Positions 1-46,684 of a stretch of 64,000 nt of DNA are shown piece after piece (positions within the stretch are counted from its first letter, which is position 1; each line of letters begins with the position of its first letter). This DNA is from Hephaestia mangrovi (lineage in GTDB: Bacteria > Pseudomonadota > Alphaproteobacteria > Sphingomonadales > Sphingomonadaceae). The DNA lies in assembly GCF_019880555.1 (NCBI RefSeq), contig NZ_JAINVU010000004.1, forward strand, positions 1 to 64,000. The letters run 5' to 3'. The notes beneath the pieces were generated by a model. The model made no database searches. It was not told where the DNA came from and was given only the letters and a program-made list of their open reading frames with translations. Made by a program: the position numbers and the translations under genes.

Positions 1-290
1 CCGCCGGTGACGCCCGGCTCGACAACCGCAAGGTAAAGAATGCGCTCGGCGGCCGGCCGCGCATGCTCGGCGTCGACGAGGTCGAGCAGCTGACCGGTCA
101 CCCGGTCGGTGGCGTATGTCCGTTCGGCCTGGCGAGCCCGCTGCCGATCTATTGCGACATGTCGCTGCGGCGGTTCGATGTCGTCTATCCCGCCGCCGGC
201 AGCCGCACCGCGTCGGTGCGGGTCACGCCTGACCGGCTGGTCGAACTGGTTGGCGCCGAATGGGCCGACCTCTGCTCGATCGCCGAGTAG
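1..290 (+). CDS. YbaK/EbsC-type aminoacyl-tRNA deacylase, C-terminal part (truncated by window edge)
   Basis: The reading frame is open from base 3 to a TAG at 288-290, so only about 95 C-terminal residues are present and the start lies outside the window. The visible part (K-V-K-N-A-L-G-G, then G-V-CPFGL, then P-I-Y-C-D) matches the end of the YbaK/prolyl-tRNA-editing fold. Family members hydrolyse mischarged aminoacyl-tRNAs (for example Cys-tRNAPro) in trans in the cytoplasm. It runs toward the mobilisation genes and ends 10 bases before the traD stop codon, so the left edge of the accessory island may lie at or near its 3' end. Family assignment is good; the exact tRNA substrate cannot be judged. 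Confidence 0.75.
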   Translation, partial: AGDARLDNRKVKNALGGRPRMLGVDEVEQLTGHPVGGVCPFGLASPLPIYCDMSLRRFDVVYPAAGSRTASVRVTPDRLVELVGAEWADLCSIAE

Positions 291-523: not shown

Positions 524-850
524 TCATGACGCGCCAGCTTTAGCGTCAGTCGGTTGCGGCGCGCCGCTGCCTGGCGCAACGCCCTTGCCGTCGCGCAAAT
601 TGCCGTGAGCAACGGCCTTCGCATCGCCGCGAAAGAATGCCTCGCCTGCGGACCGCCATGCCGCCTTGGTCGCTGCATCGCGCTGCGCAGCGACCGCGAG
701 CAGCGCGCCCGCGAGTTCCTCGACCGGCAATGCGTCGGCGCCGGTGGCCATCACCAGCTCGCCGAGCTGTTGAACCTTGCGCTGCTTGAGCTGTCTCGCT
801 CTGTCGTCGAGTGCCTTTAGTTCGGCATCGAAGTCGCGTGGCTTACGCAT
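524..850 (-). CDS. traC: TraC-family conjugal transfer protein
   Basis: This 108-residue protein begins MRKPRDFDAELKALDDRA, followed by QRKVQQLGELVMATGAD, which is typical of the TraC family of Ti/rhizobial plasmids. TraC assists relaxase processing at oriT. An in-frame ATG five codons upstream exists, but GGAGG stands seven bases before the ATG at 850, so that start is preferred. The first half is predicted coiled-coil or helical with many charged residues. It is the first gene of the traC-traD unit and faces traA across the oriT-containing spacer, the arrangement known from Ti plasmids. Confidence 0.8.
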   Translation of the reverse strand: MRKPRDFDAELKALDDRARQLKQRKVQQLGELVMATGADALPVEELAGALLAVAAQRDAATKAAWRSAGEAFFRGDAKAVAHGNLRDGKGVAPGSGAPQPTDAKAGAS

Positions 851-914
851 GAGTCGGTCCTCCATTGCGATGTGAGGATCGACCAGTTATCGTGGTGCTC
901 GATCACAAACAATG

Positions 915-995
915 CGCTGAAATCTCTTGGGATATCCTCGTCCCGAGATTGATGAAATCTTTCGAGGGCGCGCTTATACGTCGTGCCGACGTCGC
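915..995. other. oriT: Probable Q-type origin of transfer (oriT)
   Basis: The spacer between traC and traA contains GGGCGCGCTTATACGTCG at 966-983. Read on the minus strand this gives TAAGCGCGCCC, one base different from the RSF1010 nic core TAAGTGCGCCC and close to Ti-plasmid oriT cores. Two inverted repeats flank or overlap it: AATCTC..GGGA/TCCCGAGATT at 921-932 and 941-950, and ACGTCG/CGACGT at 978-983 and 987-992. Position between divergent traA and traCD is the Ti-plasmid layout. The exact nick position is inferred by analogy only. Confidence 0.75.
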
Positions 996-1021: not shown

Positions 1022-3919
1022 ATGGCGATCTACCATTTCTCCGCCAAAGTCATCTCGCGCGCTGCCGGCTCGTCGGCGCTGGCGGCTGCTGCCTATCGCT
1101 CCGCCTCGCGGCTGCACGACCAGCGTCTCGATCGCCATCATGACTTTTCCAACAAGGCGGGCGTCGTGCATTCCGAGGTGCTGCTGCCCGACGGCGCGCC
1201 CGAGCATCTGCGCGACCGCGAGCGGCTGTGGAATGACGTCGAGGCGGCGGAGGTGCGCAAGGACGCGCAGCTTGCGCGTGAGATCGAGTTCGCCATTCCA
1301 AGGGAGCTCGACCAGGCGGAAGGTATTCGCCTCGCGCGCGAGTTCGCGAAAGCCGAGTTCGTCGACCGCGGGATGATCGCCGATTTGAACGTGCATTGGG
1401 ATATCGGCAGCGACGGTCTGCCCAAGCCACACGCGCACGTGATGCTGACGATGCGCTCGGTCGATGCCGATGGGTTCGGGCCCAAGGTGCGCGACTGGAA
1501 CCGGACCGATCTTCTCGAGCATTGGCGCGAAGCGTGGGAGCAGCACGTCAACACGCGGCTTGCCGAACTCGACATCGACGCGCGGATCGATCACCGGTCG
1601 CTGGAAGCACAGGGCATCGATCTCGAGCCGCAGCACAAGATCGGCCTTGCTGCGAGCCGGATGGTCGCCGACGGGCTGACTTCCGAACGCCTCGACGAGC
1701 ATCATGCCATTGCTCGCGCCAATGGCGACAAGCTGCTGGCGAACCCGGCGCTGGCGCTCAATGCGATCACCCGCACCCAGGCGACGTTCACCACCCGCGA
1801 TCTCGCCATGTTCGTTCACCGCCATAGCGAGGGGAAAGAACAGTTCGACCGCGTGATGGCGGCGGTAAGTGCGTCGCCCGAGCTGGTGGCGCTGGGCAAG
1901 GACGGGCGCGGGCACGACCGGTTCACCAGCCGCGAGATGATCGCCACCGAGCAGCAGCTCGAGCGGGCCACCGTCCGGCTGGAGGCCGCGCGGCGCCACG
2001 GCGTCGGTGAGCAACACCGCAAGCTCGCACTCGCGCGCGCGGAGATGCGCGGGCTAATGCTATCGAGCGAGCAGCGCAGCGCGTTCGATCACGTCACCAA
2101 AGGACAAGGGTTGGGCGTGGTGATCGGCTATGCCGGGACCGGCAAGTCGGCGATGCTGGGCGTCGCCCGTGAGGCGTGGGAGAGCGTCGGCTACCACGTC
2201 TGCGGCGTCGCGTTGTCGGGCATTGCGGCGGAGAATCTCGAAGGCGGCTCAGGCATTGCATCGCGCACGATTGCGAGCCTGGAGCATCAATGGTCCGAGC
2301 GTCGCGAGCTGCTGACCAATCGCGACGTGCTGGTGATCGACGAGGCGGGAATGGTCGGGACGCGGCAGATGGAGCGCGTTTTGTCCGAAGCCGAGAAACG
2401 CGGGGCCAAGGTCGTGCTGGTCGGCGATCCAGAACAGCTTCAGGCGATCGAAGCGGGGGCGGCGTTCCGCTCGGTCGCCGCGCGGCATGGCGGCGTCGAG
2501 ATCACCGACATCCGCCGGCAGCGCGAGGACTGGCAGCGCGATGCCACGCGGTACCTCGCGACCGAGCGCACCGGCGAGGCGATCAGCCTGTATGAGCGCC
2601 ATGACCGCATCCACGTTGCCGAGACGCGCGATGAGGCGCGCGCCGGACTGATCGAGCGGTGGGACCGCGACCGGCACAGTGCGCCAGGCGCGTCACGCAT
2701 CATCCTGACGCACACCAATGACGAGGTGCGCGCGCTGAATGTTGCCGCGCGTGAACGGCTACGCGCGGGCGGCGAACTAGGTATCGACGTGACGGTCGCC
2801 ACCGAGCGTGGCGAACGCGCGTTCGCCGACGGCGACCGCGTCATGTTCCTGCGCAACGAGCGCAGCCTGGGTGTGAAGAACGGCACGCTCGGCCAAGTGG
2901 ATTCGGTAACGCCGACCCGTATGGCGGTGCTGCTGGACGACGGTCGCGCGATCGCGTTCGACGTGAAAGACTATGCCGCCGTAGATCATGGCTACGCCGC
3001 GACGATCCACAAGGCGCAGGGGGTGACGGTCGACCGCGTGCATGTCCTGGCGACGCCAGGGCTCGATCGGCACGCCGCCTATGTCGCGCTGTCCCGTCAT
3101 CGCGATAGCGTCGACCTCCATTATGGTCGCGATGACTTCGCCGATCGACAGGCATTGACGCGGGGCCTGTCGCGCGAGCGTGGCAAGGACATGGCGTCAG
3201 ACTATACGCGCGCATTTGCCGATCGCCGGCAGATCGAGCCGCCCCAACCACCGCGGAATCGGTTCGCGGGGCTCAAGCTGAGGTCGGTATCCCCGCCACA
3301 GCGGCAACCAGCGACAGTCGAACGCACCATTGCTCCGACGCGCGATCCAACGCCGGCGTTGACGCGCGATCCGCGCCCTTATCTCTCGTCGGCGGTAACT
3401 CGGCATGGGCGCGTCGTGCGGGCGATGCTGTTCGCGCAGTCTCTTGGAGACAAACCCACCGCGGAGCAACGCGCCGAATTGGCCGACAGCCGCTCCCAGC
3501 TCGGCAAGCTGCAACCCGATGGCGCGCGAGATCTTGAAGCTGCGTTTGCCAACGATCGCGACCTGATCACCGAAGCGTCCAGGGGGCAGACTCGCAACGC
3601 CATCCAGGCGATGCAGCTTGAGGCCGAGATGCGGACCAATCCCACCCTCCGCGCCGACGTGTTCGTTCGGCGCTGGCAGGCGCTCGAGCGGCAACGCCGC
3701 TACCTCTTGGACAGGCACGAAACCACACGCGCCAACACGCTGGGCGACCGGATGATTGGCATGGCGACGTCGCTCGAGCGCGATCCGCAGGTGGAATCGC
3801 TGCTACGCAATCGGCGCGTGCAGTTGGGGTTGCCGGCGCACTCGGTCGAGAGCGTCGGCCGGGCGCTTGGCGAGATGATTGGTCGTGGGCGGAGCAGGGG
3901 ACTTGAGATCGGGATGTGA
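1022..3919 (+). CDS. traA: TraA relaxase/helicase (MobA/MobL relaxase fused to RecD-like helicase)
   Basis: This 965-residue protein would nick oriT and unwind the transferred strand. The start MAIYHFSAK at 1022 matches MobA/TraA proteins exactly, including Tyr25 (A-A-Y25-R-S), the position of the catalytic tyrosine in RSF1010 MobA. The open frame extends 13 codons upstream into oriT and is not used. The relaxase domain (about 1-220) has the metal-binding region H-W-D-..-K-P-H-A-H. A superfamily 1 helicase follows, with Walker A GYAGTGKS near residue 370, Walker B V-I-DEAGM near 440, and T-I-HKAQG near 660. The C-terminal 250 residues are charged and helical. Only traA, traC and traD are present, so the element is probably mobilisable or a remnant rather than self-transmissible. 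Confidence 0.93.
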   Translation: MAIYHFSAKVISRAAGSSALAAAAYRSASRLHDQRLDRHHDFSNKAGVVHSEVLLPDGAPEHLRDRERLWNDVEAAEVRKDAQLAREIEFAIPRELDQAEGIRLAREFAKAEFVDRGMIADLNVHWDIGSDGLPKPHAHVMLTMRSVDADGFGPKVRDWNRTDLLEHWREAWEQHVNTRLAELDIDARIDHRSLEAQGIDLEPQHKIGLAASRMVADGLTSERLDEHHAIARANGDKLLANPALALNAITRTQATFTTRDLAMFVHRHSEGKEQFDRVMAAVSASPELVALGKDGRGHDRFTSREMIATEQQLERATVRLEAARRHGVGEQHRKLALARAEMRGLMLSSEQRSAFDHVTKGQGLGVVIGYAGTGKSAMLGVAREAWESVGYHVCGVALSGIAAENLEGGSGIASRTIASLEHQWSERRELLTNRDVLVIDEAGMVGTRQMERVLSEAEKRGAKVVLVGDPEQLQAIEAGAAFRSVAARHGGVEITDIRRQREDWQRDATRYLATERTGEAISLYERHDRIHVAETRDEARAGLIERWDRDRHSAPGASRIILTHTNDEVRALNVAARERLRAGGELGIDVTVATERGERAFADGDRVMFLRNERSLGVKNGTLGQVDSVTPTRMAVLLDDGRAIAFDVKDYAAVDHGYAATIHKAQGVTVDRVHVLATPGLDRHAAYVALSRHRDSVDLHYGRDDFADRQALTRGLSRERGKDMASDYTRAFADRRQIEPPQPPRNRFAGLKLRSVSPPQRQPATVERTIAPTRDPTPALTRDPRPYLSSAVTRHGRVVRAMLFAQSLGDKPTAEQRAELADSRSQLGKLQPDGARDLEAAFANDRDLITEASRGQTRNAIQAMQLEAEMRTNPTLRADVFVRRWQALERQRRYLLDRHETTRANTLGDRMIGMATSLERDPQVESLLRNRRVQLGLPAHSVESVGRALGEMIGRGRSRGLEIGM

Positions 3920-4277
3920 GAGGAAGGGGCGTGGCCTGCGAGACCTGAACCAAAATGTCTTGTCTGTCGGACGAACCGGTAAATCTCGTTTAAGGAGCGC
4001 AGATTGGGATAGCTGACGTTTTGGGTGCGGAGCCGGCGCGCCAGCTTCGCGCTGTAAATTTGCCGGTTTTTCGGATGCTAGTCATCCTGCTCAAATCGAT
4101 TATCGGTTAAGATGATCGCCAAGTTGTTATCCGAACCCTCTGTCCGCTTAGCTTCAACAATCGGCACGCGCTTTCAGATTGTCGCGCGACTATGCTAGTC
4201 ATAAGCCGCCCAGAGCGATCGGCATTGGAGGGTGACTTACCCTATCATAATTGATGGCGGACCCCCTCGGCTGTTTG
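3920..4277. other. Intergenic stretch without a recognised gene
   Basis: These 358 bases lie between the ends of traA and the OYE-like gene, which are convergent. The sequence becomes noticeably richer in A and T than the flanking transfer genes, which marks a change of origin inside the island. I see no tRNA, clear terminator hairpin with T-tract, or ORF with family character. Confidence 0.4.
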
Positions 4278-5306
4278 TCACATAGCACCTAGTGGCAGAG
4301 TTGACGCGTTTCCACCGTCGCCCCAACGCGCGCAACGCAGTGACCCCTCACGCCTCGAGAAATAGTGACACTTGCTGCGATTCTCGCATCCTTGCTCGGG
4401 TTGAGCCAAAAAGAGCGGGTTCGCGATCAAATCGCGGCAGAGCCCAAGATGAAGATTATCTGGAAGCGCCTCGCTGGCGGCGTTCACCGCCCGTCCGGAC
4501 AAAATGAATTTTCGATCAGGGTGGCGTCTGGCGACGTTGATACTCATCGAGTGACGTAAAGCGATCACATCCGGACGGCTCGGATAGATCAATCGCTTGT
4601 CGATGTTGTAAAAGCCGGACGATAGATCGATGAAGTCGAAGGGCAATGCCGCGACGCTGTCTTGGAAGCGTTTGGCGCCTGCCGCGTCGAAGGCGGCATA
4701 CCCCGTCAACAGCGAAATGCGAAGAGAGGTCTCAACCCTAGCAGTCGCTAGCCGCTCAGCAAGCAAAGATAAGCGGTCAAGGGTCTCCTCGCTCCGCGAA
4801 TTGATGCGAGAGTCTATTAGCAGGCTGAGGAGATAGCCGTGCGCACCATGGAGCTGTACATGCCGATATCCATGGCCGATTGCCACGTCCGACGCCTCGT
4901 GAAACGCGTTTATTATGGCTGCGCTGCCATCGGGGCCGAGTTGCTCGACGAGCGCGCGGGCGTCCTCGATCACACTGCCTGGGTCATTCCCTACAAACTT
5001 CCGGGTGCCGACATAACCTGGCCAGCTTGTGGCGAGTTGGATGCCGGCTATGCTCCCGCCCTCAGTAATGGCGGCAGCCACCCTACTCCACACGGGGTCG
5101 CCTGTGAGCGTCGGCGTCACCTCATTACTCCCGTACCCCCCAGGCACCACTACATTCCCGATAATGGCGCAATGCAGACCGTGTGAAGATCGTCGCCGGT
5201 AGAAATCTACATAGCGGCTATCGGGCAAGCCATTTGTGACATAGCCCGTATTTACGCCCAAAAAGAATATGTGCTTACCGCTCGAGTTGGCGATAGCGTT
5301 CGTCAT
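4278..5306 (-). CDS. Old-Yellow-Enzyme-like flavin oxidoreductase (TIM barrel), island-borne
   Basis: About 342 residues with the plan of the NADH:flavin oxidoreductase family. The N-terminus has G-V-N-T-G-Y and Y-V-D-F-Y-R-R-R-S. The family's active-site region appears at about residue 150 as Y-R-H-V-Q-L-HGAHGYLLSLL-I-D-S-R-I-N-S-R-S-E-E. Near the C-terminus C-R-D-L-IANPLFL precedes C-x5-C-x11-C, reminiscent of the cysteine cluster in iron-sulfur members of the family but with different spacing. The start at 5306 is chosen because upstream codons lie inside the MazG gene in another frame; the overlap is 32 bases. It is the last gene of a three-gene unit with MazG and the Dcd-like membrane protein. 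Substrate and role in this context are unknown. Confidence 0.65.
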   Translation of the reverse strand: MTNAIANSSGKHIFFLGVNTGYVTNGLPDSRYVDFYRRRSSHGLHCAIIGNVVVPGGYGSNEVTPTLTGDPVWSRVAAAITEGGSIAGIQLATSWPGYVGTRKFVGNDPGSVIEDARALVEQLGPDGSAAIINAFHEASDVAIGHGYRHVQLHGAHGYLLSLLIDSRINSRSEETLDRLSLLAERLATARVETSLRISLLTGYAAFDAAGAKRFQDSVAALPFDFIDLSSGFYNIDKRLIYPSRPDVIALRHSMSINVARRHPDRKFILSGRAVNAASEALPDNLHLGLCRDLIANPLFLAQPEQGCENRSKCHYFSRREGSLRCARWGDGGNASTLPLGAM

Positions 5307-5628
5307 TACGACTGATTTTCTCCAGAATATCCGCTTCAAGATCTGCGCCGAGCAGCGTCGCAAGCCGAAAGATGTAGATCGCGGCGTCGGCAAGCTCCTC
5401 GCGCAAATATGGGGTGGCCTGCGCGAGCGTTTGCCCCTCATAACCTTGTGTTGTGCGGGCGAGCGTCACCTTTTTCAAGGCGTTCGAAAACTCGCCGATC
5501 TCGCCGAACAGGCCGACTAGGTCGTTGGTGATTTGTTGTTCGCGCGCTGCAAAGTCCTTGAAATCAACCCTGAACCCACGCCGACGATCTCGTTCGATCT
5601 GCTGCTCAATCAGGGCCGACAATTCCAT
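5275..5628 (-). CDS. MazG-like nucleotide pyrophosphohydrolase
   Basis: A 117-residue all-alpha protein with the MazG/dUTPase-2 metal signature: E-I-G-E at about 43-46 and E-E-L-A-D at about 77-81, with helices around them (IYIFRLATLLGADLEADI). Family members hydrolyse NTPs or dNTPs to NMPs plus pyrophosphate using Mg2+. It starts three bases after the stop of the Dcd-like gene and overlaps the OYE-like gene downstream, so the three are almost certainly one operon. The last part, K-I-S-R-N-D-E-R-Y, is typical of MazG-like proteins found in phages and islands. The substrate is not deducible; link to nucleotide-based defence is inference. Confidence 0.8.
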   Translation of the reverse strand: MELSALIEQQIERDRRRGFRVDFKDFAAREQQITNDLVGLFGEIGEFSNALKKVTLARTTQGYEGQTLAQATPYLREELADAAIYIFRLATLLGADLEADILEKISRNDERYRQLER

Positions 5629-5631
5629 AGC

Positions 5632-6405
5632 TCATGGCTTCCGAAAATATGTTACAAAAAAGGTAAGAAGACCAACGATCGCGCTGCTCACCAGGTTGGT
5701 GAGGATAGCATGAAATGCGTCGATCCACCCCCGACCCATCGCGAATAGCGCCCCGGCATTGACAATCATGGCTAGCGCGAGCGCGCCATTGATCCATGCC
5801 TGCGACCGCTCGATCTTCTTGATGATCGTGCGCGTCGCCGCCGGGAGAAGTGCCAGGGCTTCGGACCGTTCCGATTGCACGCGCGGGTCATGCGAGAGTT
5901 CGGCATGGCTTTTCTGAAGTTGGGTTTTGATTGGCCAGATGCCGGCCTGAAAGCCATGCTGCCCGTGGTAAGGCTTTGCTGCTGGGCCAGATAGCCGGGT
6001 GAAATCGGCCTTGGCGATCGGCTCACCTTGCGGGAGCTCGATATATTTATCGCTGATATTTTCGGTGACGATACCGAGATTGCCTTTGAACCCTGGATCG
6101 GCGTAGGTCGCAACCGGGCTCAGTCCAATGCTGAACAGCGATCCCTTCGAAACGATACGAACGAGGACGTCGATTGGAACGTCGAATTCTTCGGCAGTAA
6201 TTAGCACCACGCGATGTCCCGGTTTGAGCAACGCCGTCTCATCCGCGACAAGCGCAAAGCGCCTACCGCCTTCCGTCAGATCATAATAGACATTCCCCAT
6301 CCGAAGTTCGTAGCAGGCGCCACTCAAACTTTTCGTGTCGGCGTTGAGAATCAGCCGACGTCGGCTGATTTCATTCGCAATATCGGCATCGTTCAATGTT
6401 GTCAT
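5632..6405 (-). CDS. dCTP-deaminase-fold (Dcd-like) protein with two C-terminal membrane helices
   Basis: 257 residues. Residues about 1-165 align along their length with dCTP deaminase: LSGACYELRMGN, A-D-P-G-F-K-G-N, and F-T-R-L-SGPAAKPY near the end. By my eye alignment with E. coli Dcd, catalytic Glu138 becomes Val, Arg115 becomes Ser, and the R-S-S substrate motif becomes K-G-S, so deaminase activity is doubtful. Two hydrophobic segments at about 204-224 and 233-254 end the protein, giving a soluble nucleotide-binding-type domain tethered to a membrane hairpin. The start ATG at 6405 has a GGAGGGG ribosome site. It is the first gene of an operon with MazG and an OYE-like protein. A nucleotide sensor coupled to a membrane effector is my inference. 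Confidence 0.72.
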   Translation of the reverse strand: MTTLNDADIANEISRRRLILNADTKSLSGACYELRMGNVYYDLTEGGRRFALVADETALLKPGHRVVLITAEEFDVPIDVLVRIVSKGSLFSIGLSPVATYADPGFKGNLGIVTENISDKYIELPQGEPIAKADFTRLSGPAAKPYHGQHGFQAGIWPIKTQLQKSHAELSHDPRVQSERSEALALLPAATRTIIKKIERSQAWINGALALAMIVNAGALFAMGRGWIDAFHAILTNLVSSAIVGLLTFFVTYFRKP

Positions 6406-6751
6406 GGATTCCCCTCCCGTCCGCGCCACACGAGGCACTAAGCATGTTAATTACATCGTCGGTATAAATTTGCATAAAGCGTGTTTAAAATAGCTGGTTC
6501 GCGCCGTCGACATGGTTGACTGGCTGAGGGTAGATTGCCTTGGATCCGTTGGTCAGACCGCGACTGCAGCAGTCAGGTTGGCTGTCTTCTCCGCGCCCTA
6601 GCCAGGTAATTCACGGAGACTTTGTTCTCACCGGACCTCGGGGTTCGTTCAAGTGCGCATGTTCGAAATCGCGATAAGGTGCCGAGGGTGGACAGATGAC
6701 CTAAACATCCTAAAGTCCCTAACAGGAAACAGACTGCGGGATTGCCATGCC
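6406..6751. promoter_or_regulatory. Divergent promoter region between the Dcd-2TM operon and the methyltransferase operon
   Basis: The 346-base spacer separates two divergent operons and is markedly AT-rich around 6440-6500 (TTAATTACATCG, GTATAAATTTGC, GTTTAAAATAG), a likely site for promoters in both directions. The plus-strand frame of the methyltransferase is open from 6653 but the first hundred bases have no family similarity, so I treat them as leader. No clear operator palindrome was found. Confidence 0.4.
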
Positions 6752-8092
6752 ATGGGGCGGCGTGGCCCCAAGGCGGCGGGGCAAGTGCTGAGTAGCGCGA
6801 TCGTGGCAAATTTTACCTACATGGGCTCAAAAAAGCTTTTGGCTCCGCAAATCGCTGACCTCGTCGCGGACATGGCCGATGGTCCTTTCCTTGATCTCTT
6901 TTCAGGCATTGCCGCTGTGGGGTCGCAGATCAGCACCCAGCGACCTATCTGGTGCAATGATGTGCAAAACTTCTCGACGCTCCTAACTAGTCAGAAGTTT
7001 TGTGCCGCGCGAGCGTTCAAGACAGCGAATGAACTCGTTGAGAGTGCGAAGATACCCTATGCTGTCAACCAGACCAGACTTGAAGAAAAGTTTGGCGAGA
7101 CGCTTGCTCATGAGAGACGAGCGCTTGCCAGCGGGTCCGCGGAAGGTACACGAGAAGTCATCACGATCATGTCGCAAGTGGACAAGCAGATTAGTGCCCT
7201 GCGCCGCCAGCAGGTTCACTGCCTGCTTACCGGCTCACACGGAGCTACTTACTTCGGGGTACGCCAAGCGATCGAACTCGATTCAATACGCTACGCTGCC
7301 GACCATCTTTTGTCCCGGGGTAAGGTGACTGCCGAAGAGCATGGTTGGATGGTACTGGCATTATGCCAGACGCTGTCAACGGTCAGCAATTCCACCGGCC
7401 ACTTTGCTCAATATTTGTCGCCGAGTGACGCAAACATTCGGCGAGTGCTGCGCAAACGACGAATGAATTGCTGGTCAGTATGGTCCGCTGCACTTCGTGA
7501 AAGCCAGCCGATTGGAAATGTTGTCTGGCGACGCGGCAATCGTATCTTCAAGTCGGACGCCATTAGGCTGCTCCAGTCGCTATCGGAAAGAGTGGGGCAG
7601 CCCGCCGTAATTTACGCCGACCCCCCCTACACCAGCGATCAATATTCCCGATATTATCATGTTCTAGAAAATGCAGTTCTCTACGATTACCCGGAGGTTT
7701 CAGGAAAAGGTCAGTATAGACCAGACCGATTTACCTCCGGCTTTTCGCTCAAAGCGGGTGTTGATGCTGCCTTCAAAGAGCTTATCTCGGCCGCTGCGAA
7801 GCTCCCCGCTGTCTTCATCCTCAGCTATCCGACTAATGGTCTGCTGAAAAACTCGACGAAGCGCGTGCTTGAGCTACTAGCGGACCAATTCGCGCACGTT
7901 GAAGCGCCACTTGTCATTCCGCATCTTCATTCGACGATGGGCGGATCGAAAGGTGCGCAGAAGCATGCCGTCGATGAGAACATCTTCGTTGCTTATCAGG
8001 ATCCTGTCGCGCGCTGGCGGGGCAAAGCCGCCGCTACCCTTGCGACGCAACGCACGCAGCCAATCCTCAAGGTCGAGGATATCGCTGCGTGA
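6752..8092 (+). CDS. D12-class DNA adenine N6-methyltransferase
   Basis: The protein has the D12 (Dam-like) order: an N-terminal F-T-YMGSKKLL substrate/AdoMet motif, motif I F-L-DLFSGIAAVG, and the catalytic DPPY motif in V-I-YADPPYTSDQYSRY in the second half. A long helical insertion separates the motifs. Such enzymes methylate adenine in a short target sequence. Start choice is uncertain: GTG 6653 and ATG 6659 are in frame, but the segment before 6752 looks unrelated; from 6752 the protein is 446 residues. It is the first gene of a four-gene chain in which every junction overlaps (GTGA at 8089, ATGA at 9291, TAATG at 11175). No restriction endonuclease gene is adjacent, so methylation may provide self-marking for the downstream genes. 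Confidence 0.85.
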   Translation: MGRRGPKAAGQVLSSAIVANFTYMGSKKLLAPQIADLVADMADGPFLDLFSGIAAVGSQISTQRPIWCNDVQNFSTLLTSQKFCAARAFKTANELVESAKIPYAVNQTRLEEKFGETLAHERRALASGSAEGTREVITIMSQVDKQISALRRQQVHCLLTGSHGATYFGVRQAIELDSIRYAADHLLSRGKVTAEEHGWMVLALCQTLSTVSNSTGHFAQYLSPSDANIRRVLRKRRMNCWSVWSAALRESQPIGNVVWRRGNRIFKSDAIRLLQSLSERVGQPAVIYADPPYTSDQYSRYYHVLENAVLYDYPEVSGKGQYRPDRFTSGFSLKAGVDAAFKELISAAAKLPAVFILSYPTNGLLKNSTKRVLELLADQFAHVEAPLVIPHLHSTMGGSKGAQKHAVDENIFVAYQDPVARWRGKAAATLATQRTQPILKVEDIAA

Positions 8093-9294
8093 CTTCACGC
8101 ACGCTCAAGATTGCCGTGGTGAGCGATCTCCACGTCTTTAATGGCTCGTCGGAAGATTCCAAAAGCCCGTCGACGATTGGAACAGCCGATGCTCAGGACG
8201 CTCCCGAGCGGCATCCGTTACGTGGCCTAGCCCAGATCATCGAACGCGATAAGCTGAGCGCAGACCTGCTGATTTGCCCGGGAGACTTGTCGGATAAGGC
8301 TGATCCCGCAGCCCTGATATTCGCCTGGAGAAAGCTCAATGAGCTCAAGGAACAACTAGGGGCTAAGTATCTTCTGGCCACCGCGGGCAATCATGATGTC
8401 GATTCGCGCAACCAGTACGACGATCATGATCCTAAAGGTAATCTTCAATCCTTGGATCCTATGTTTCCAGGTGTTGAAGAAGCGCTCTGCGATCGCTTCT
8501 GGTCACGCAATTTCGTGATCGTTGAGTTTGACGAAGTGCGGGTCGTGCTGCTCAACTCGTCTGCTTTTCACGGGTATGGACCCGATGCCAAACCCGAATT
8601 TCGTCATGGCAGGATCAGCTCGAAGACACTTTCTGCGCTTCGTATGGCGCTCGCTGGTGGCGAAAAACGGATCAACATCCTAGTCTGTCATCATCACCCA
8701 ATTACGCATAATCCAGTCAATGAAGAAGATTATAGCGAGATGGTGGGAGGCGATCGCCTGATAGATCTGCTCGATTCCGGTGAGTACGGGTCATGGCTGA
8801 TGATCCATGGCCACAAACATTACCCCCGACTCGCCTATGCCTCTGGGGGCGCATCATCGCCGATAATTTTTTCGGCTGGGTCGCTGAGCGCATTCCTGTA
8901 TCAGAAGATTGCCAGTCGTGCGCGCAATCAATTCTACATCCTTGAGATTCCTATAGGTGATCTCGACACGTTGGAACTGGATCTAGCGGGAACGCTGACC
9001 GCTTGGGACTGGATCAATATGTCCGGCTGGCAACCCGCGGGCGCCGGCTCAGGCCTACCGCACCAGGTCGGTTTTGGTTGGCGGGAATCTGCCCGTACGA
9101 TCGCAACGATGATTGCAAAACATTTGGAAGACAAAACGAGCGTTTTGACTGGCGAGGAATTGCTGACCGCTATCCCGAGATTGCGCTACCTGCGCCCAGA
9201 GGAAATTGAAGCCGTCGTGCGGCGATTGGGCTCATCACATGGGATCATCGCTCAACTCAAGGACGGCATTATCTGCGAAGTGGGGCGAACATGA
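8089..9294 (+). CDS. Calcineurin-like metallophosphoesterase
   Basis: 401 residues starting at a GTG that overlaps the methyltransferase stop (GTGA). All motifs of the calcineurin-like fold are present in order: SDLH (Asp13, His15), CPGDLSD near 65, GNHD near 100, HHHP near 202 and IHGHKH near 240, so two metal ions should be bound. The final 130 residues are an extra region ending in a small helix-turn-like segment (L-T-G-E-E-L-L-T-A-I, then R-R-L-G-S-S-H-G-I-I). Members include DNA nucleases of the Mre11/SbcD type and cyclic-nucleotide phosphodiesterases; the sequence does not decide between them. Its place between a methyltransferase and an ATPase suggests the catalytic effector of a defence module, as inference. 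Confidence 0.85.
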   Translation: MTSRTLKIAVVSDLHVFNGSSEDSKSPSTIGTADAQDAPERHPLRGLAQIIERDKLSADLLICPGDLSDKADPAALIFAWRKLNELKEQLGAKYLLATAGNHDVDSRNQYDDHDPKGNLQSLDPMFPGVEEALCDRFWSRNFVIVEFDEVRVVLLNSSAFHGYGPDAKPEFRHGRISSKTLSALRMALAGGEKRINILVCHHHPITHNPVNEEDYSEMVGGDRLIDLLDSGEYGSWLMIHGHKHYPRLAYASGGASSPIIFSAGSLSAFLYQKIASRARNQFYILEIPIGDLDTLELDLAGTLTAWDWINMSGWQPAGAGSGLPHQVGFGWRESARTIATMIAKHLEDKTSVLTGEELLTAIPRLRYLRPEEIEAVVRRLGSSHGIIAQLKDGIICEVGRT

Positions 9295-11177
9295 ATATCC
9301 TCATGTCAGCACCAAGCGTCTTTGAATCCTTCAATGCGCGAAATCTTGATCCAACCCAGGTTGCTCAGCGCTTTATACCACCCCGGCAATTTGACGAACT
9401 GATCCTCCGGAATCACAGCATCGTGGTAGGCCCACGAGGCAGTGGGAAAACCACGCTGCTCAAGATGCTCCAGCTGCCAGCGCTCGCGTCATGGAATCAT
9501 CAGGATGCCGACAGCTTTAGGAAGAAGATCGATTTCACCGGGGTGTTTGTCGCAGCGGACATTAGCTGGGGCGCACAGTTGACGGCGCTCGGCGAAGCTC
9601 GGTTGTCCGATGACCTGCGTACATTGCTCGGCTTTTCGGCGTTTACCACGCATATGCTGTCTGCGCTGGTACGCGCGATGAAGGAAGCGATGAACTCGGC
9701 CCTCGCTGATATTCCGTCGCTTGCCCGCCTATATGTCGATCTAGATCGCGAGACTATAGCTGCGCTTGTCCGGTCGCTCGCGAGAGAATGGGAGCTGACG
9801 CCCGAACTACCGACATTGTTTGCATTGCAGACAGCGCTCCAAGGTCGGCTGTCGAAGATCGCACAGATCGCTAATCAACTGGCCTTGGCCGGCGTGCGAG
9901 AACTCGATCCACATTTGCCCGAAACTCAGTTTCTTTATCTCGACGCGCTTTCGGCGGTTTCTTTCGGCGTCGAGCAGTTCAACACTTATGCTGACCAGCC
10001 GTATCGAAAATGGGCTTTGTTGTTTGACGAGCTTGAAATCGCACCTCAGGCAATTCGTCAGACGCTGCTCAAGGCCTTGCGAAGCACAAACTCGAATCTG
10101 CTCTTCAAACTGTCGCTCAGTCCGTACCATCAAGATGCTGGGCTGCTGAACAGCGCCATCGCGGCGATGCCGGCGCAGGATTATCAGCCGATCGAACTCT
10201 GGTATGCACGCAAGGAGCAGGGCTTCCAGTTCTCACGCGCCCTTCTGGAAGCTATGATCGCGGACGCAGGCTGTAACGGCGTTACGCCGGAGGATATCTT
10301 TGGTACAGCCTCGATAGGCATGCGCGAAGATGTGTCAGGTGTGCAGCCGTCGGCCTACCGCCCAGGTACGGACCTACATAAGCGGTATAAGCGACTGGCC
10401 ATCAAGGACCCGAGCTTTGCTACCTATATCAGCGAGAACCGGGTCGATCTCGACCGGATGCACGAACTTCCCTCTGCGGAGCGGGCCAGCGTCATTCGCA
10501 AGGTCACCTCGATCGTCATGGTGCGCGAAGCATATCGGTCAGAGCCGCAGGCGATCGGCGGCGGTCAACGGCTCGGCCGTAGTCGCAAGAACGCAAACGT
10601 CTATTATGGCGTTGATGCACTGCTCGCGATCGTCGAGGGCAACCCACGCTGGCTGATTGGGCTGATGGGCCCGCTGATCCGGCGATTTAAAAATGATGGG
10701 CAACGCGTACCCCGTGCAATTCAAGCAACCGCGATATCGACCGCCGCAAATCGATTTCGCGCGCTCCTGCGCACCATTCCCTATGTCCCCGACGGCACAA
10801 GCTCATTTCGCCACAAACAGATGGCGTCGCGCGGGTTACTCACGCTGCTGGACGCCCTCGGCGCGCGCTTTCGCCGTCACATCGTCGTTGATGACTTTTC
10901 ACCTGATCCGGTGCTATCATTTACTGTCGACGCAAATACCTCCGACAGTCTTCTGTTGGCGCTTGGCCGGGCACTAAACGCTGGCGCAATCATCCTGGTG
11001 CCCGACTCCGGCGCGGAGGCCATCGCTAGCTCCATCCGTGGAAAGCGCTTCCGTCTCTCCTACATGCTTGCAACTAGCTACGGCCTTCCCTTGCTGCTGG
11101 GGCGCGAGGGCTCGCTTCAACGCCTGCTTACGGACGATCGCGCGAGCTCCGTGCCGCTGTTCAACGGAGACCTGTAA
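9291..11177 (+). CDS. ORC/Cdc6-like P-loop ATPase
   Basis: 628 residues, starting at an ATG overlapping the phosphoesterase stop (ATGA). The N-terminus reads F-N-A-R-N-L-D-P-x-Q-V-A-x-x-F-I-P-P-R-x-F-D-x-L, then Walker A GPRGSGKTT at 47-55; Walker B is WALLFDELE near 241-249. This N-terminal pattern is that of the ORC-CDC6-like AAA ATPases found in bacterial islands. The C-terminal third contains no motif I know and may bind a partner or DNA. It is the third of four coupled genes. It is probably the energy-dependent recognition or loading component, by analogy with ATPases in other phage-defence operons. Confidence 0.75.
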   Translation: MNILMSAPSVFESFNARNLDPTQVAQRFIPPRQFDELILRNHSIVVGPRGSGKTTLLKMLQLPALASWNHQDADSFRKKIDFTGVFVAADISWGAQLTALGEARLSDDLRTLLGFSAFTTHMLSALVRAMKEAMNSALADIPSLARLYVDLDRETIAALVRSLAREWELTPELPTLFALQTALQGRLSKIAQIANQLALAGVRELDPHLPETQFLYLDALSAVSFGVEQFNTYADQPYRKWALLFDELEIAPQAIRQTLLKALRSTNSNLLFKLSLSPYHQDAGLLNSAIAAMPAQDYQPIELWYARKEQGFQFSRALLEAMIADAGCNGVTPEDIFGTASIGMREDVSGVQPSAYRPGTDLHKRYKRLAIKDPSFATYISENRVDLDRMHELPSAERASVIRKVTSIVMVREAYRSEPQAIGGGQRLGRSRKNANVYYGVDALLAIVEGNPRWLIGLMGPLIRRFKNDGQRVPRAIQATAISTAANRFRALLRTIPYVPDGTSSFRHKQMASRGLLTLLDALGARFRRHIVVDDFSPDPVLSFTVDANTSDSLLLALGRALNAGAIILVPDSGAEAIASSIRGKRFRLSYMLATSYGLPLLLGREGSLQRLLTDDRASSVPLFNGDL

Positions 11178-12112
11178 TGCTCGGCATAGAGATCATCGGC
11201 GACGGATCGCTAGACGACCGGTTCGACTTGTTCATCGGAACGCTGGGCTATGAGACGAGGTCTAGCCACCTAGCCCGACACGGCCAGATCAACGCGTGCC
11301 GGAAGATTGCGCTAGCATTTCCAGAGGAAGATTACGCCGCCTATTTGAGCAACCGCGACTTCCTCAACGAGGCCAAATTTGAGATCCTACCAAAAGATAC
11401 CGGAGAGTTCTCAAAGGTTTTGGCAACGTCTATAGAGAATCATCCTACAGATGAGAAACGAGATTTCTCTATCCTCGTCGATATCTCATCGATGTCACGC
11501 CCGATGCTTGCTGACATTGTTTATCAGCTGAGTATGGTCGAACGTGTTGCCGGCATGAGGGTCACGTTTGTCTATCTGCCGGCGGAGTTCGTAAGGGAGA
11601 ATGCCGAACATGCGCCAGTCGCCGTAACCGAACCTGTCACACCCGATTATGCAGGTTGGACCTCAACTCCCGAACGCCCCATCACCGCCGTGGTTGGCTT
11701 GGGTTACGAACATGACCTCGCGCTTGGTACCATCGAGTATCTTGAGCCAACCAGCGTCTGGGTCTTCGTTCCGACTGGAGAAGACCGACGGTATGACGAT
11801 GCCGTCAATCAGGCCAACCGTGATCTGAAGGAAATGCTCAGGGACGAGCGCGTGATGAATTATTACGTAGACGCGCCAGCGCGAGTTCACGCCATACTTG
11901 AAAATCTTGTGTTTGGGCTACTTCAGTCCTCCCGAACAGTTCTCGTTCCCTTTGGCCCTAAAATATTTAGCCTTTGCTGTCTGCTTGTTGCACGCACCTA
12001 CGCGCCGGAGATTACCGTGTGGCGCGTAAGCGGAGAAACCTTCGCCAAACCCGGCGATCGGATAGCCAGCGGAAAGGTTGTCACTTTGCAAACTCGCTTC
12101 GCGCGTCGCTGA
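11177..12112 (+). CDS. Unrecognised two-lobed alpha/beta protein, fourth gene of the methyltransferase operon
   Basis: 311 residues, start ATG overlapping the ATPase stop (TAATG). I do not recognise the family with confidence. The protein looks internally duplicated: FIGTLGYETR at 19-28 and V-V-G-L-G-Y-E-H-D at 172-180 both sit on a predicted strand-turn at the start of a lobe. Each is followed about 80 residues later by a strand ending in a conserved-looking loop (LVDISSMSRPM at 100-110, LVPFGPKIFSL at 256-266). The pattern suggests two Rossmann-like halves, as in CARF-type ligand sensors, but this is inference from sequence appearance. No nuclease or membrane segment is evident. Confidence 0.6.
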   Translation: MLGIEIIGDGSLDDRFDLFIGTLGYETRSSHLARHGQINACRKIALAFPEEDYAAYLSNRDFLNEAKFEILPKDTGEFSKVLATSIENHPTDEKRDFSILVDISSMSRPMLADIVYQLSMVERVAGMRVTFVYLPAEFVRENAEHAPVAVTEPVTPDYAGWTSTPERPITAVVGLGYEHDLALGTIEYLEPTSVWVFVPTGEDRRYDDAVNQANRDLKEMLRDERVMNYYVDAPARVHAILENLVFGLLQSSRTVLVPFGPKIFSLCCLLVARTYAPEITVWRVSGETFAKPGDRIASGKVVTLQTRFARR

Positions 12113-12664
12113 CCAATTACGTGGTGTCGCGACCCCGATGTCCGGCACGCCCAAAGTATACTCCAATGTGTCCGCGACTGACCTAGCCGGCCGTGCGCGG
12201 CCCAGGAGGTGCTATAACTTGCCGCCTGCATAAACGGCCGGTTTCAAGGTGCAATTAAAGCACCGCGAATGTTAGCTAAGTTGGCGGCTGCGGTCGTGGC
12301 GTTGACGCTTTCTGAAGCCGGCGGCTTCCGACCAATTATGGCCTTTCACCGGCGGCGGATTTTGAATGCACCAAGCATGCGACAAACTGTACCCTTGCGC
12401 CGGCGTTAATGCCTTTCACAGCGCTGGAATTAATTTTTTAGCGTTCGACTCTCAAAATGGCGTCGACCTTTTCCATGCGCTTTGCAGCCAAGTTTATTGC
12501 CCGTGGCGTCAACGCAGCGCGGCGACCGAATTTGACAAAATCCAGGGAAATGAGAGATTGGCAATCGGCCGGCGATTGCCGGCACCGATCGCGCGCCTAG
12601 TCGTTCACTATATAATGACGAATTTGCGTGAGACCGGAGAGGTCTAACCAGGCGGAGAGCAACC
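12113..12664. other. Intergenic region between the four-gene operon and the dGTPase unit
   Basis: 552 bases without a convincing gene. Short perfect hairpins occur at 12314-12328 (GAAGCC-GGC-GGCTTC) and 12248-12264 (GGTGC/GCACC), neither followed by a T-tract. A TATAAT stands at 12611-12616. An open frame at 12366-12647 has no ribosome site or family character and is not annotated. Confidence 0.4.
12611..12616 (+). promoter_or_regulatory. Candidate -10 element for the small-protein/dGTPase operon
   Basis: A perfect TATAAT lies 48 bases upstream of the ATG of the 68-residue gene in an otherwise GC-rich context. No good -35 hexamer was found at standard spacing, so support is moderate. Confidence 0.35.
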
Positions 12665-12871
12665 ATGGCCGACAGGGACCCGCAAGATGCCGAAATTCTT
12701 GAGCTAGTTGGTACGGGCGTGAATCCCGACAACCTTATCGCTACGCTCAGTGAAAAATATCCGATGGACAATGTCATTGAAGGGCTACAGCGCGCCATCG
12801 AGCGTGAAAAAATTACTCTCGACCGTGCAGGAATGGTCGTAGCTGTGCGCCAGCTTGCTGAAGCTGCCTAA
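12665..12871 (+). CDS. Small hypothetical protein upstream of dGTPase-like gene
   Basis: 68 residues, mixed charge, predicted mostly helical, without signal peptide or membrane segment. A GGAGAG ribosome site stands seven bases before the ATG. It reads D-A-E-I-L-E-L-V-G-T-G-V-N-P-D-N-L, later N-V-I-E-G-L-Q-R-A-I-E-R, and resembles no family I know. The next gene starts 22 bases downstream on the same strand, so both are probably co-transcribed. A regulatory or inhibitory partner of the dGTPase-like enzyme is possible from the context only. Confidence 0.6.
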   Translation: MADRDPQDAEILELVGTGVNPDNLIATLSEKYPMDNVIEGLQRAIEREKITLDRAGMVVAVRQLAEAA

Positions 12872-12893
12872 GAAACAATATTGGGGGCAGTGA

Positions 12894-14255
12894 GTGTCAG
12901 TTGGGGAAGAGTCGCCTCTTGATAAGGCGAGAATTGGCCGTTGTCATATAGACGATCTCGTACCCTCAATGGACCAGAGAGGCGCATTTGAGCGCGATCG
13001 GGACCGGATACTTTACTCTTCAGCGTTCCATCGCTTGGCTGGCATTACGCAGATCGTACGCGCCGGCGAACTCGACATTTTTCATACCCGCCAGCAGCAC
13101 ACCTACAAGGTTGCCCAGATAGGACGCCGCCTAGCGCAGTACCGCCTATATGCGCAGCCTAAGGCGGCGAAGCTTCAAGGACTGGACGCTGAGGTGGTCG
13201 AGGCAGCTTGTCTCGCGCACGACCTCGGGCATCCACCTTTCGGGCATGCCGCAGAGTACGAGCTTGACAGGCTCGTGCGCGATCCGACCATTTGCGGCGG
13301 CCTTGTGGAGGATGCTGCTCCGGACGGATATGAAGGAAATGCTCAGACGTTCCGCATTTTGACGAAGCTCGCTGTTCGGTACGGTAAAGATAGTCCTGGG
13401 CTCGACCTTACCAGAGCGACGTTAGCGGCGACGCTTAAGTACCCATGGCTGCGCGACCTTTCAAACGACAAAAAGAAAAAGAAGTGGTCAGCTTACACGT
13501 CTGAAAAGACGGCATTTGAATGGGCGCGTGAGCATTGCCGGGGCGACTACAAGACGGCTGAAGCGGAACTAATGGATTGGGCGGACGACATCGCTTATTC
13601 CGTACACGATCTCGAGGATTTCCATCGCGTCGGGATAATCCCTTGGAGTGAGATTTTCTCTGATAAGGCCCGTGATCGGATTATTGACGGAGCGCTCAAA
13701 GATTGGGCTCGAGACCCGAGCAATCCTGCCGATTCCCACGTCCGCCTGAAGCGTGCGATGGACCGCATTAAACTCAGAACCAAGATGTTCCCGAGAGTCA
13801 CGGATGAAGTATACAACGGCGCGCGCGAGCAACGACGTCAGCTTCGAAACTTCACTTCGACGTTAATCGGGGGGTACGTTCGCGCCGTGACATTAGCTGA
13901 AGACCTTAAGGGTGACGCGGTCATCATTGATTCTGACGCCTCGGATGAAGTCCGGCTATTGAAGTATTTTGCGCGCCAATACGTTATCGGACTGCCAGCC
14001 TTGCATGCGCAGCAGTATGGACAGAAGCGAATTGTGCGGGACCTATTTTCGATTTTCCTCACAGAAGGCAAAGCCGGCCATCTTGGCCTGTTCCCCACCC
14101 GCCTCCAGTACATCTGGGAGGATAACTCTGATGACAAGCCCGCGCGGCTGGCGGCAGACTGCGTCGCCTCTCTGACTGAAAACGAAGCGTATCAACTTCA
14201 TGGACGCCTAATGGGCACCGAGAGCGGCTTGGTACTGGACCCCATTGTTCGCTAA
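12894..14255 (+). CDS. dGTPase-like HD-domain deoxynucleoside triphosphate triphosphohydrolase
   Basis: 453 residues from a GTG preceded by GGGGGCAG. The HD-superfamily signature is complete: His in R-Q-Q-H-T-Y-K-V near 68, AHDLGHPPFGHAAE near 107-120, G-Y-E-G-N-A-Q-T near 147, and the metal-ligand Asp in DWADDIAYSVHDLED near 228-240. These enzymes cleave dNTPs to deoxynucleosides and triphosphate. Housekeeping Dgt has this role, and bacterial dGTPases are also established anti-phage enzymes that deplete nucleotides. Its position in an island with other nucleotide-handling genes favours the defensive role; this is inference. It is the last island gene before chromosomal glycosidase genes. Confidence 0.88.
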   Translation: MSVGEESPLDKARIGRCHIDDLVPSMDQRGAFERDRDRILYSSAFHRLAGITQIVRAGELDIFHTRQQHTYKVAQIGRRLAQYRLYAQPKAAKLQGLDAEVVEAACLAHDLGHPPFGHAAEYELDRLVRDPTICGGLVEDAAPDGYEGNAQTFRILTKLAVRYGKDSPGLDLTRATLAATLKYPWLRDLSNDKKKKKWSAYTSEKTAFEWAREHCRGDYKTAEAELMDWADDIAYSVHDLEDFHRVGIIPWSEIFSDKARDRIIDGALKDWARDPSNPADSHVRLKRAMDRIKLRTKMFPRVTDEVYNGAREQRRQLRNFTSTLIGGYVRAVTLAEDLKGDAVIIDSDASDEVRLLKYFARQYVIGLPALHAQQYGQKRIVRDLFSIFLTEGKAGHLGLFPTRLQYIWEDNSDDKPARLAADCVASLTENEAYQLHGRLMGTESGLVLDPIVR

Positions 14256-14688
14256 TCATCAGCCGAGGGGACAACTTGCTATTTCGCGAGCAGGAGGCGT
14301 AAACCCGTCGAGGGTCCGCTCCTGACGAAACAGACTTTGCCCGTCACGCCGGCGAACGGCGGCTTCGTCCCAATGAGCGCTGATCGTGGCGCCGCGGTGA
14401 CACCGTTCTGAAGTGGCAATCTCGCAGCCTACTGGTATAGTTTTCGCTGCTGACCCACGGGTCGAACCAAAGTCAGCTGGGTTCCAAACCCCAGAATCTC
14501 TCGAGTAATGGGGCCTCTTCGGGGGCTCAGTCGACCCTTGGTCGCGGAAAATTGATGTAAAGACAATATTTTTCGCTGTTAGTTTGAGCCCGTCACCGCC
14601 CACCATTTCAGCGTTTAAGCAATGCTAGGCGATCGAGGCTAGGTTCGCATCGCGCCAAAAAGGCGGCGATTGCGGACAACGCGTGGCC
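14256..14688. other. Intergenic region, probable right border of the island
   Basis: 433 bases between the convergent dGTPase-like and GH2 genes. No tRNA, integrase, or clear direct repeat matching the left edge could be found by eye. A minus-strand open frame spanning 14259-14606 lacks a ribosome site and family features. Composition shifts back to GC-rich after about 14640. Confidence 0.35.
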
Positions 14689-16794: not shown

Positions 16795-17189
16795 CCGGCT
16801 CCTCCTTGATTTATGTCGAATCCTTAACCGGGTCAGCGGAGAGCAGCGCAAAAAAGAGACCCGCTGGCGCTAGGCCAGCGGAACCAGCAACGCGAAGTAG
16901 CTTCCCGACAAGGCGGGCTTGAGCGGACGGGGGAGCGTCGATCAGCGAATATTTGCGACATTAAAATTGAAATTGACAACGGCATGGGTTCATGCGGCTT
17001 CTCGCTTTATGAATATGTATTAGTCGCACGCGCGATCTGTTCAACACGAAGGTCCATTTTCGTGCAGTGCACGCGCGGCCATAGGCTTTCCGCGGAGATC
17101 ATTGAAATTACTGCGCTTGATAGCGTTAGCAATATCGCTATTGAGATGAAATTGGCAAGTTGGCAACAGCGGCGGAGGGGAGAGCGAAA
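16795..17189. promoter_or_regulatory. Divergent promoter region for the GH2 and GH27 genes
   Basis: 395 bases between divergent glycosidase genes. It contains TTGACA at 16974-16979, a GCATG-GGTT-CATGC inverted repeat just after it, and TGAATATGTATTAG at 17010-17023. The last differs slightly from the ATACGTAT-centred operators found later in the window and might be a weak or related regulator site. Confidence 0.4.
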
Positions 17190-18377
17190 ATGCGGGTATT
17201 GGTGGCGATCTTGTTGGGATTGTTGCTTGCCGTGCCGGCCCTCGCCGACGATCCGCCTAAGCCGCTTGATGCGAACGGTTTGGCGCTGACCCCGCCGATG
17301 GGCTGGAACAGCTGGAACAAGTTCGGTTGCGACAATAGCGAGAAGACAGTGCGGGCGGCAGCCGACGCAATGGCATCCAACGGCATGCGTGACGCCGGCT
17401 ACAAATATCTCGTCATCGACGATTGCTGGCAGGGCAAGCGTGACGCCAACGGGTTCATCCAGCCCGACCCCGCTAAATTCCCCTCCGGGATCAAAGCGCT
17501 CGCGGATTACGTTCATAGCAAGGGGCTGAAATTCGGGATTTATTCTGACGCGGGTTTCCAGACGTGCGCACATCGCCCCGGCAGCCAGGGACACGAATAT
17601 CAGGATGCGCTGCAATATGCCCGGTGGGGGGTAGACTATCTCAAATACGATTGGTGTTCGACTGGCACGCGCGACGCTCGGGAGGCTTATCGGACGATGG
17701 CTGAGGCTTTGCGTGCCACCGGACGCCCGATCGTCTTCTCGATTTGCGAGTGGGGCACGGCCAAGCCGTGGCTGTGGGCGACGAATACGGGCAATCTATG
17801 GCGCACCACGGGCGACATCTGGGATCATTGGGCTGGGCCGAACTCGAATGGCTATTCGCTCGGTGTGATGGATATCATCGACCTCAACGAGCCGTTATGG
17901 CCGTTCGCCGGACCGGGCCATTGGAACGACGCTGACATGCTGGAAGTCGGCAATGGCGGGATGAGCGAGAACGAATATCGTGCCCATTTCTCGCTTTGGG
18001 CGATGATGGCCTCGCCGTTGATGGCAGGCAACGATCTGGCAAACATGACGCCGGAGATTCGCGCCATCCTGCTCAACAAGGAGGTTATCGCGGTCGATCA
18101 GGACGCGCTCGGCGAGCAGGGGCGACGGATCGACCGGCAGGGCGACATGGAGGTATGGATGAAGCCGCTGACAGGCGGTGCACGCGCGGTGCTGTTCCTC
18201 AACCGCGGCGAGACGCCGGGTACGGTTGGCGTCAAATGGGGCGCGCTCGGCTATCCGAAGCGGCTAAAGGCGACCGTCACCGACCTGTGGAGCAAACAAG
18301 TTTGGCATGGCCAATCAGCCGGGCTGGAACGCACGGTGGCGCCGCACGCGGTCGTCATGCTCCGAATCGAGCCTTGA
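17190..18377 (+). CDS. Alpha-galactosidase, glycoside hydrolase family 27
   Basis: 395 residues. The ATG at 17190 follows GGAGGGGAG and opens a signal peptide (M-R-V-L-V-A-I-L-L-G-L-L-L-A-V-P-A-L-A-D). The GH27 barrel is clear: T-P-P-M-G-W-N-S-W near 30, V-I-D-D-C-W near 75, the nucleophile Asp in Y-L-K-Y-D-W-C, and the acid/base Asp in G-H-W-N-D-A-D-M-L. A C-terminal beta domain ends the protein. It removes terminal alpha-linked galactose in the periplasm. It is divergent from the GH2 gene; nadB follows after 81 bases. Confidence 0.93.
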   Translation: MRVLVAILLGLLLAVPALADDPPKPLDANGLALTPPMGWNSWNKFGCDNSEKTVRAAADAMASNGMRDAGYKYLVIDDCWQGKRDANGFIQPDPAKFPSGIKALADYVHSKGLKFGIYSDAGFQTCAHRPGSQGHEYQDALQYARWGVDYLKYDWCSTGTRDAREAYRTMAEALRATGRPIVFSICEWGTAKPWLWATNTGNLWRTTGDIWDHWAGPNSNGYSLGVMDIIDLNEPLWPFAGPGHWNDADMLEVGNGGMSENEYRAHFSLWAMMASPLMAGNDLANMTPEIRAILLNKEVIAVDQDALGEQGRRIDRQGDMEVWMKPLTGGARAVLFLNRGETPGTVGVKWGALGYPKRLKATVTDLWSKQVWHGQSAGLERTVAPHAVVMLRIEP

Positions 18378-18458
18378 GTCACACTGCCCGGCGAGCGGAT
18401 CGCGGGCGGCACAATCAGGCCTCTACCCAATTGGTCACGCGGCTGTCATAGAGCCGCC

Positions 18459-43557: not shown

Positions 43558-43609
43558 GCGCTGTTGCAATTCGGCAACGGCGGGGTCACGCCGCAGCGTG
43601 ACAGTCATG

Positions 43610-43623
43610 TGAATACGTATGTC
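43610..43623. promoter_or_regulatory. ATACGTAT operator, copy 2 (TonB receptor gene)
   Basis: TGAATACGTATGTC, core at 43613-43620, stands about 100 bases upstream of the TonB-receptor ATG, in the position of a promoter operator. It is the inverted equivalent of copies 1 and 3. Confidence 0.6.
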
Positions 43624-46659: not shown

Positions 46660-46684
46660 TCTCCTTCCCGATCAGATCCTCGCT

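Follow-up and report, generated by a model that had tools for sequence, protein, structure and literature searches.

A 28-bp Ti-type oriT beside a traA relaxase gene, most likely part of an IME, in a sphingomonad chromosome

Mobilizable elements built around a Ti-like traACD locus are known from Mesorhizobium, for which 25 such IMEs have been described (PMC8627217). According to a 2017 review, none of the proteobacterial IMEs described by then combined a canonical relaxase of its own with a complete lack of T4SS proteins (PMC5704250), a gap that, in the terms in which the review names it, appears to be filled by the 2021 Mesorhizobium elements and by the element reported here. The latter lies at the left end of contig C19, of which a stretch of 64,000 nucleotides (the window) was analyzed. 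Relatives were taken from one TraA scan, in which the best 80 of 480 matches were kept, giving 79 loci with mostly sphingomonad titles. Gene borders beyond the list of open reading frames come from a simple codon-score script, and their start codons are approximate. The features discussed below are as follows.

3..290, plus strand: end part of a YbaK-like gene, truncated by the contig end; 89% DNA identity to the copy on contig C2, which matches PF04073
301..507, minus strand: traD-like relaxosome gene (PF06412, 3.5e-20, residues 57-123 of a longer open reading frame); relatives at 75 of the 79 loci (best 80 of 480)
524..865, minus strand: traC-like relaxosome gene (Pfam TraD family; PF06412, 1.5e-15); relatives at 77 of the 79 loci (best 80 of 480)
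965..992, minus strand: predicted oriT core unit, ATAAGCGCGCCCT (977 down to 965) plus a 6-bp inverted repeat; conserved in relatives
978..992, no strand assigned: inverted repeat ACGTCG-TGC-CGACGT, arms 978-983 and 987-992; perfect in 75 of 78 relatives
1022..3919, plus strand: traA, Ti-type relaxase-helicase of 965 residues with Tyr25 and a PHAHV motif at 136-140 (TIGR02768; MobQ NF041496)
4278..14255, no strand assigned: low-G+C cargo with D12 methyltransferase, calcineurin-like, ORC-CDC6-like, CARF6-like, dGTPase, and other genes (Pfam and PADLOC; G+C 0.54-0.58)
14590..14608, plus strand: putative attR, 19 bp identical to the tRNA-Val(tac) 3' end with 3 bases beyond it (repeat search)

The conserved oriT unit comprises 28 bp (965-992), made up of a nic core on the minus strand, ATAAGCGCG^CCCT, and the 6-bp inverted repeat, and lies 41 bp upstream of the traA ATG at 1022. 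Read along the minus strand, the order is ACGTCG-GCA-CGACGT-ATAAGCGCGCCCT, with the repeat first and the core (977 down to 965) after it. Positions 965-976 of this strand, TAAGCGCGCCCT, are one base off the RSF1010-type core TAAGTGCGCCCT, as the preliminary description had noted, and the latter core is also found in an IncQ1 plasmid. We take the placement of the nick from RSF1010, which would put it on the minus strand between 969 and 968.

The Ti-type plasmid p42a of Rhizobium etli resembles the window in gene order (traD-traC / traA), in having the repeat before the core, and in 17 of 20 bases; the position of the oriT between traA and traC/traD is thus that of a Ti-type plasmid, as originally proposed. 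However, p42a is a replicating plasmid that also carries traG and trb genes, and its full order is traG-traD-traC / traA. RSF1010/IncQ1 shares 11 of the 12 core bases and a MobA tyrosine that aligns with that of TraA but has another repeat sequence, agrees at only 13 of 20 bases, and encodes a MobA that is a remote relative (E 2.4e-6). Within the 12 core bases the window differs from IncQ1 at one position and from p42a at two; over 20 bases, with 17 matches to p42a versus 13 to IncQ1, the site resembles the Ti type more closely than RSF1010. Neither a close MobA relative nor the IncQ repeat with its core was found, and by sequence the window system is not a member of the IncQ (RSF1010) group, although it would work alike.

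TraA scores 922.6 bits against TIGR02768 (cut-off, 590) and 248.4 against the MobQ family NF041496 (cut-off, 200). Its start is set at the ATG at 1022, although the mechanically called open reading frame opens at GTG 983; for the traD-like gene, an open frame likewise runs up to 678. The nearest solved relatives of TraA are 4HT4 (NES; E 7.8e-38) and 2NS6 (MobA; E 2.4e-6). Tyr25 aligns with the nicking tyrosine of MobA in 2NS6, which bears out the correspondence first suggested, and the residue is present in 82 of 82 TraA sequences (79 loci from the best 80 of 480, plus the window, C18, and C11 copies); the P, H, and H of the PHxH motif are kept in the same 82 of 82. The Phe that 4HT4 shows at this position is, we presume, probably a catalytic mutation. 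The locus thus has a TraA-type relaxase with a catalytic tyrosine and an HUH-type motif, and a repeat with a TAA..GCGCCCT core between traA and traC, as in the Ti-type/MOBQ module.

The right part of the window is chromosome-like, with nadB, feoB, ssb, and prephenate dehydrogenase genes, in agreement with the chromosomal setting inferred at the outset, and no tRNA genes were found in the 64 kb. The tRNA-Val(tac) gene whose 3' end is repeated at 14590 lies on contig C23 (134295-134370), followed by genes for an integrase, AlpA, ArdC, a sigma-like protein, and an NTase and then by the contig end. This is the one recurrence (at least 13 bp) of the tRNA-Val 3' end in the 326 kb of DNA checked from the same genome, and a separate search also returned the place (C19:14582-14615, 91%, E 7.7e-6). 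Contig C2 carries a full module, consisting of tRNA-Ser, a tyrosine integrase, AlpA, ArdC, a sigma-like protein, NTase-HEPN, HU, YbaK, and traD. We conclude that C23 and C19 represent two halves of one element of ~19.5 kb, to which C23 contributes 4.3 kb and C19 contributes 14.6 kb, with ~0.57 kb missing between them if the element is built as on C2; the link across the contig break is unassembled, and it is one that we infer.

So joined, the element would have its own relaxase and oriT, an integrase on C23, and a 19-bp att pair. In a search for two T4SS marker families, PF02534 (coupling protein) and PF03135 (VirB4), neither C19 nor C23 gave a match, as expected of an IME without its own coupling protein or T4SS; an ICE would carry T4SS genes, which for these two families are lacking in the window element; VirB genes are found in an element on C11. 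The island is thus most likely an IME with a Ti-type MOBQ relaxase, and we consider it probable that the site is the oriT of a ~19.5-kb IME integrated at the 3' end of tRNA-Val(tac) in a sphingomonad chromosome and mobilized by a co-resident T4SS. The preliminary description is supported at the level of sequence as regards the Q-type core, the tyrosine of the relaxase, the Ti-like gene order, the location in a chromosome, and an island that "is, or was, mobilisable"; it is extended here by the integrase, the tRNA-Val att pair, further module genes across the contig break, and elements of the same genome that might act as helpers.

A less probable reading, to which we still give some weight, is that the oriT and relaxase are intact while the island is stranded, as an integrated mobilizable plasmid or IME that has lost excision, and that any transfer would be Hfr-like. 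The same module does occur on plasmids, and an empty site was found neither beside nadB (41 genomes searched, 9 neighborhoods examined) nor beside tRNA-Val (61 genomes searched, 12 neighborhoods examined). An ABC gene precedes nadB in 6 of the 9 neighborhoods and is here on C18, which indicates that the chromosome has been rearranged in the nadB region. Low G+C (0.57-0.60) also extends beyond attR, from 14.6 to ~18 kb, so that the right border may be composite, and this suggests later changes. The missing empty site, the low G+C past attR, and the unassembled join also weigh against the ~19.5-kb IME. Against loss of excision, traA and the integrase and AlpA genes on C23 each have an open reading frame that matches its family in full, and the att repeat is exact over its 19 bp.

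The stretch between attR and nadB (14609-18458) contains low-G+C glycosidase genes (GH2 and melibiase) that are absent beside nadB in nine relatives; it is perhaps a second, older insertion.

It is more doubtful still that the window element joins the right end of C19 itself rather than C23, in which case its integrase would be the one encoded at C19:331831 and the repeat of 19 bp at 14590 would be incidental. In favor of this join, the right ends of C19 and C23 both stop at codon 291 of an NTase gene. However, the match at 14590 is the sole one of at least 13 bp to the tRNA-Val end in the 326 kb checked, and a comparison of the integrase region at the right end of C19 with 3901-18600 gave only a 16-bp stretch in common, at 18406 on the other strand.

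Inside the element that would join C23, genes for a D12-type methyltransferase, a calcineurin-like protein, an ORC-CDC6-like ATPase, and a CARF6-like protein form a run at 6653-12112, followed by a dGTPase gene (12894-14255). No complete named system was matched at 6653-14255 in one PADLOC scan; the run and the dGTPase gene are possible anti-phage cargo, and the element suggests a route by which defense-like genes could move between chromosomes. Further along the window (42520-48360), DUF6445 and tryptophan halogenase genes adjoin a TonB-type receptor gene, and the same set accompanies the traA module of plasmid pNP2-R2 (L185:1-3647).

Taken singly, the oriT core is a weak signal: with at most one mismatch, the 12-mer has one match in the 64 kb versus 0.19 expected, and at least one match occurs in 18 of 100 shuffled sequences. 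A looser pattern (two mismatches, one N) gave 4 matches in the whole genome versus 12 with the reversed control, whereas exact cores numbered 3 versus 0. Its conservation among traA relatives makes this weak match a strong one. One locus (L078) has no upstream DNA, and upstream counts therefore refer to 78 loci (from the best 80 of 480 relatives). The exact 16-mer AGGGCGCGCTTATACG precedes traA in 68 of these, and in the other 10 it is off by one to three bases (seven with one identical single change and three with one, two, or three changes). Its distance from the traA ATG is 41 bp in 63 loci and 42 bp in 15. The 6-bp repeat is perfect in 75 of the 78 (best 80 of 480), among them L042, in which both arms are altered together, and its loop has three or four bases throughout. 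In an alignment of the 78 loci with the window, columns 965-992 agree with the window in 0.89-1.00 of the rows; agreement falls to 0.23 at 993 on the right, and on the left it is 0.94 at 964 and 0.29 at 963. Although 75 of the 78 upstream regions are distinct, they are akin to one another, and the counts should not be taken as independent events.

A pattern scan of 151 genomes of one genus with the 16-mer alone found 57 sites in 40 genomes versus 4 sites for the reversed pattern. In all 32 core loci examined among these sites (29 in other genomes and 3 in the same genome), a TraA start lies 41-44 bp from the core. The exact 13-base core is also present on four of five traA plasmids examined (Sphingomonas sanguinis, Sphingopyxis alaskensis, Blastomonas, and Mesorhizobium), and the fifth, from Sphingomonas NBWT7, has it with one base changed. 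Within 6 kb of the 79 loci (best 80 of 480), relatives of TraC occur at 77, TraD at 75, AlpA at 38, NTase-HEPN at 29, ArdC at 18, and the C2 integrase at 10; these are lower bounds, because some flanks end at contig ends and one integrase type served as query. A resemblance to oriT by chance, for which the shuffled windows with a one-mismatch 12-mer might speak, is refuted by the conservation in 78 loci (best 80 of 480) and by the adjacency of all 32 examined core loci to traA, and we give it practically no credence.

The sequence comparisons thus confirm a predicted oriT at 965-992 that is smaller than first described. Of the 915-995 interval originally assigned, the 28-bp unit stands, whereas conservation stops at 993 and no conserved inverted repeat was found at 915-964 (mean longest perfect arm, 4.44 versus 4.18 in shuffled sequences; 73 distinct regions). 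The latter stretch was therefore dropped from the core, although some of its alignment columns are conserved. An oriT delimited to 28 bp, together with the relaxase that matches it, is thereby available for a family of islands that occurs widely within one genus, as judged by the exact core in 40 of the 151 genomes scanned. Directly upstream of the traA start, at 1005-1014, a second patch, GTAGATGGT, is conserved and is perhaps a promoter or ribosome-binding element.

The same genome contains traA on C19, C18, C11, and both ends of C22, giving the window copy four siblings, with a fragment on C20; the C22 copies both break off where their contig stops, at residue 478 of the query frame of 978 residues. 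NTase copies occur at eight places. On C18, an integrase gene adjoins tRNA-Thr ~5 kb from traA. For the tRNA-Ser of C2, no att partner of at least 12 bp was found on the C22 ends (12.0 and 10.2 kb examined). On C11, an integrase gene adjoins tRNA-Glu, the end of which recurs as a 17-bp repeat ~53 kb away, and between the two copies are an exact core, traA, and genes of the VirB4 and VirB2, 6, 8, 9, 10, and 11 families, with no PF02534 coupling protein anywhere on C11. This region (G000:C11:90603-143501; L134, L135, L009, L209) is a candidate ICE of ~53 kb. A second candidate transfer element (G000:C21:12001-41191; L136, L137) is found on C21, which encodes a coupling protein, a VirB4-like protein, an integrase beside tRNA-Leu, and an NTase-HEPN copy and gave no match to TraA. 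Genome-wide, matches to PF02534 are confined to C21, and those to PF03135 to C11 and C21.

In the mechanism that we propose, the tyrosine integrase, probably assisted in excision by the AlpA-like protein, would cut out and circularize the element by recombining attL (tRNA-Val, C23:134295-134370) with attR (window 14590-14608). TraA with TraC and TraD would recognize the repeat at 978-992, and Tyr25 would nick the minus strand at ATAAGCGCG^CCCT, as the conservation of both site and residue suggests. From the polarity of the core, the strand would exit with the traC/traD side first; the YbaK, HU, NTase-HEPN, sigma-like, and ArdC genes would then enter the recipient early, and traA and the cargo later. 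Leading HU, NTase-HEPN, and ArdC genes would, we assume, fit early establishment (anti-restriction and maintenance). The coupling protein and T4SS would come from a co-resident element, for which the genes seen on C11 (same core, VirB genes) and C21 (coupling protein, VirB4-like protein) make these two elements the candidate helpers. More speculatively, sphingomonad chromosomes might hold sets of sibling elements that each occupy a different tRNA gene and share one nearly invariant 28-bp oriT, such that one expressed TraA and one T4SS (here that of the C11 element) could move all of them in trans; cross-nicking or recombination between siblings could then rearrange the chromosome, and the defense-like cargo could spread as a pooled mobilome with a common oriT. 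We regard this wider scheme as possible but rather doubtful.

Among described elements, the mobilizable plasmid pBSY18_4 of Blastomonas has the same core and, in the same order, genes for AlpA, a zincin-type (ArdC-like) protein, a sigma-like protein, HEPN, traD, traC, and traA, but it is a 40-kb circle. The IME-like plasmid pPDL2 of Sphingobium fuliginis, another sphingomonad, has an integrase and an attachment site at a tRNA-Ser 3' end; unlike in the window, its oriT is described beside a Rep-like protein, and the term traA does not appear in the text of that account (PMC3516476). None of the titles and abstracts listed described a TraA-type IME from a sphingomonad, in a literature whose subscription journals were mostly uncovered, so that absence is unproven. 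The Mesorhizobium traACD IMEs (IMEMl R88B type), as described in PMC8627217, share with the window element an integrative habit, a Ti-like traA with divergent traC and traD, att sites of the tRNA type, mostly tyrosine integrases, and the lack of their own T4SS. They differ in belonging to another bacterial order, in having an RDF gene behind traA where the window element has an AlpA gene by the integrase, and in the defense-like cargo found here; their relaxases are classed as MOBF in that account, whereas the window TraA is MobQ by NCBIfam. Because 25 such IMEs have been published, the window element represents a known kind. It is well supported that the element, from a different bacterial order and with different cargo, is of the same kind as the Mesorhizobium traACD IMEs and is thus a new example of a kind already known.
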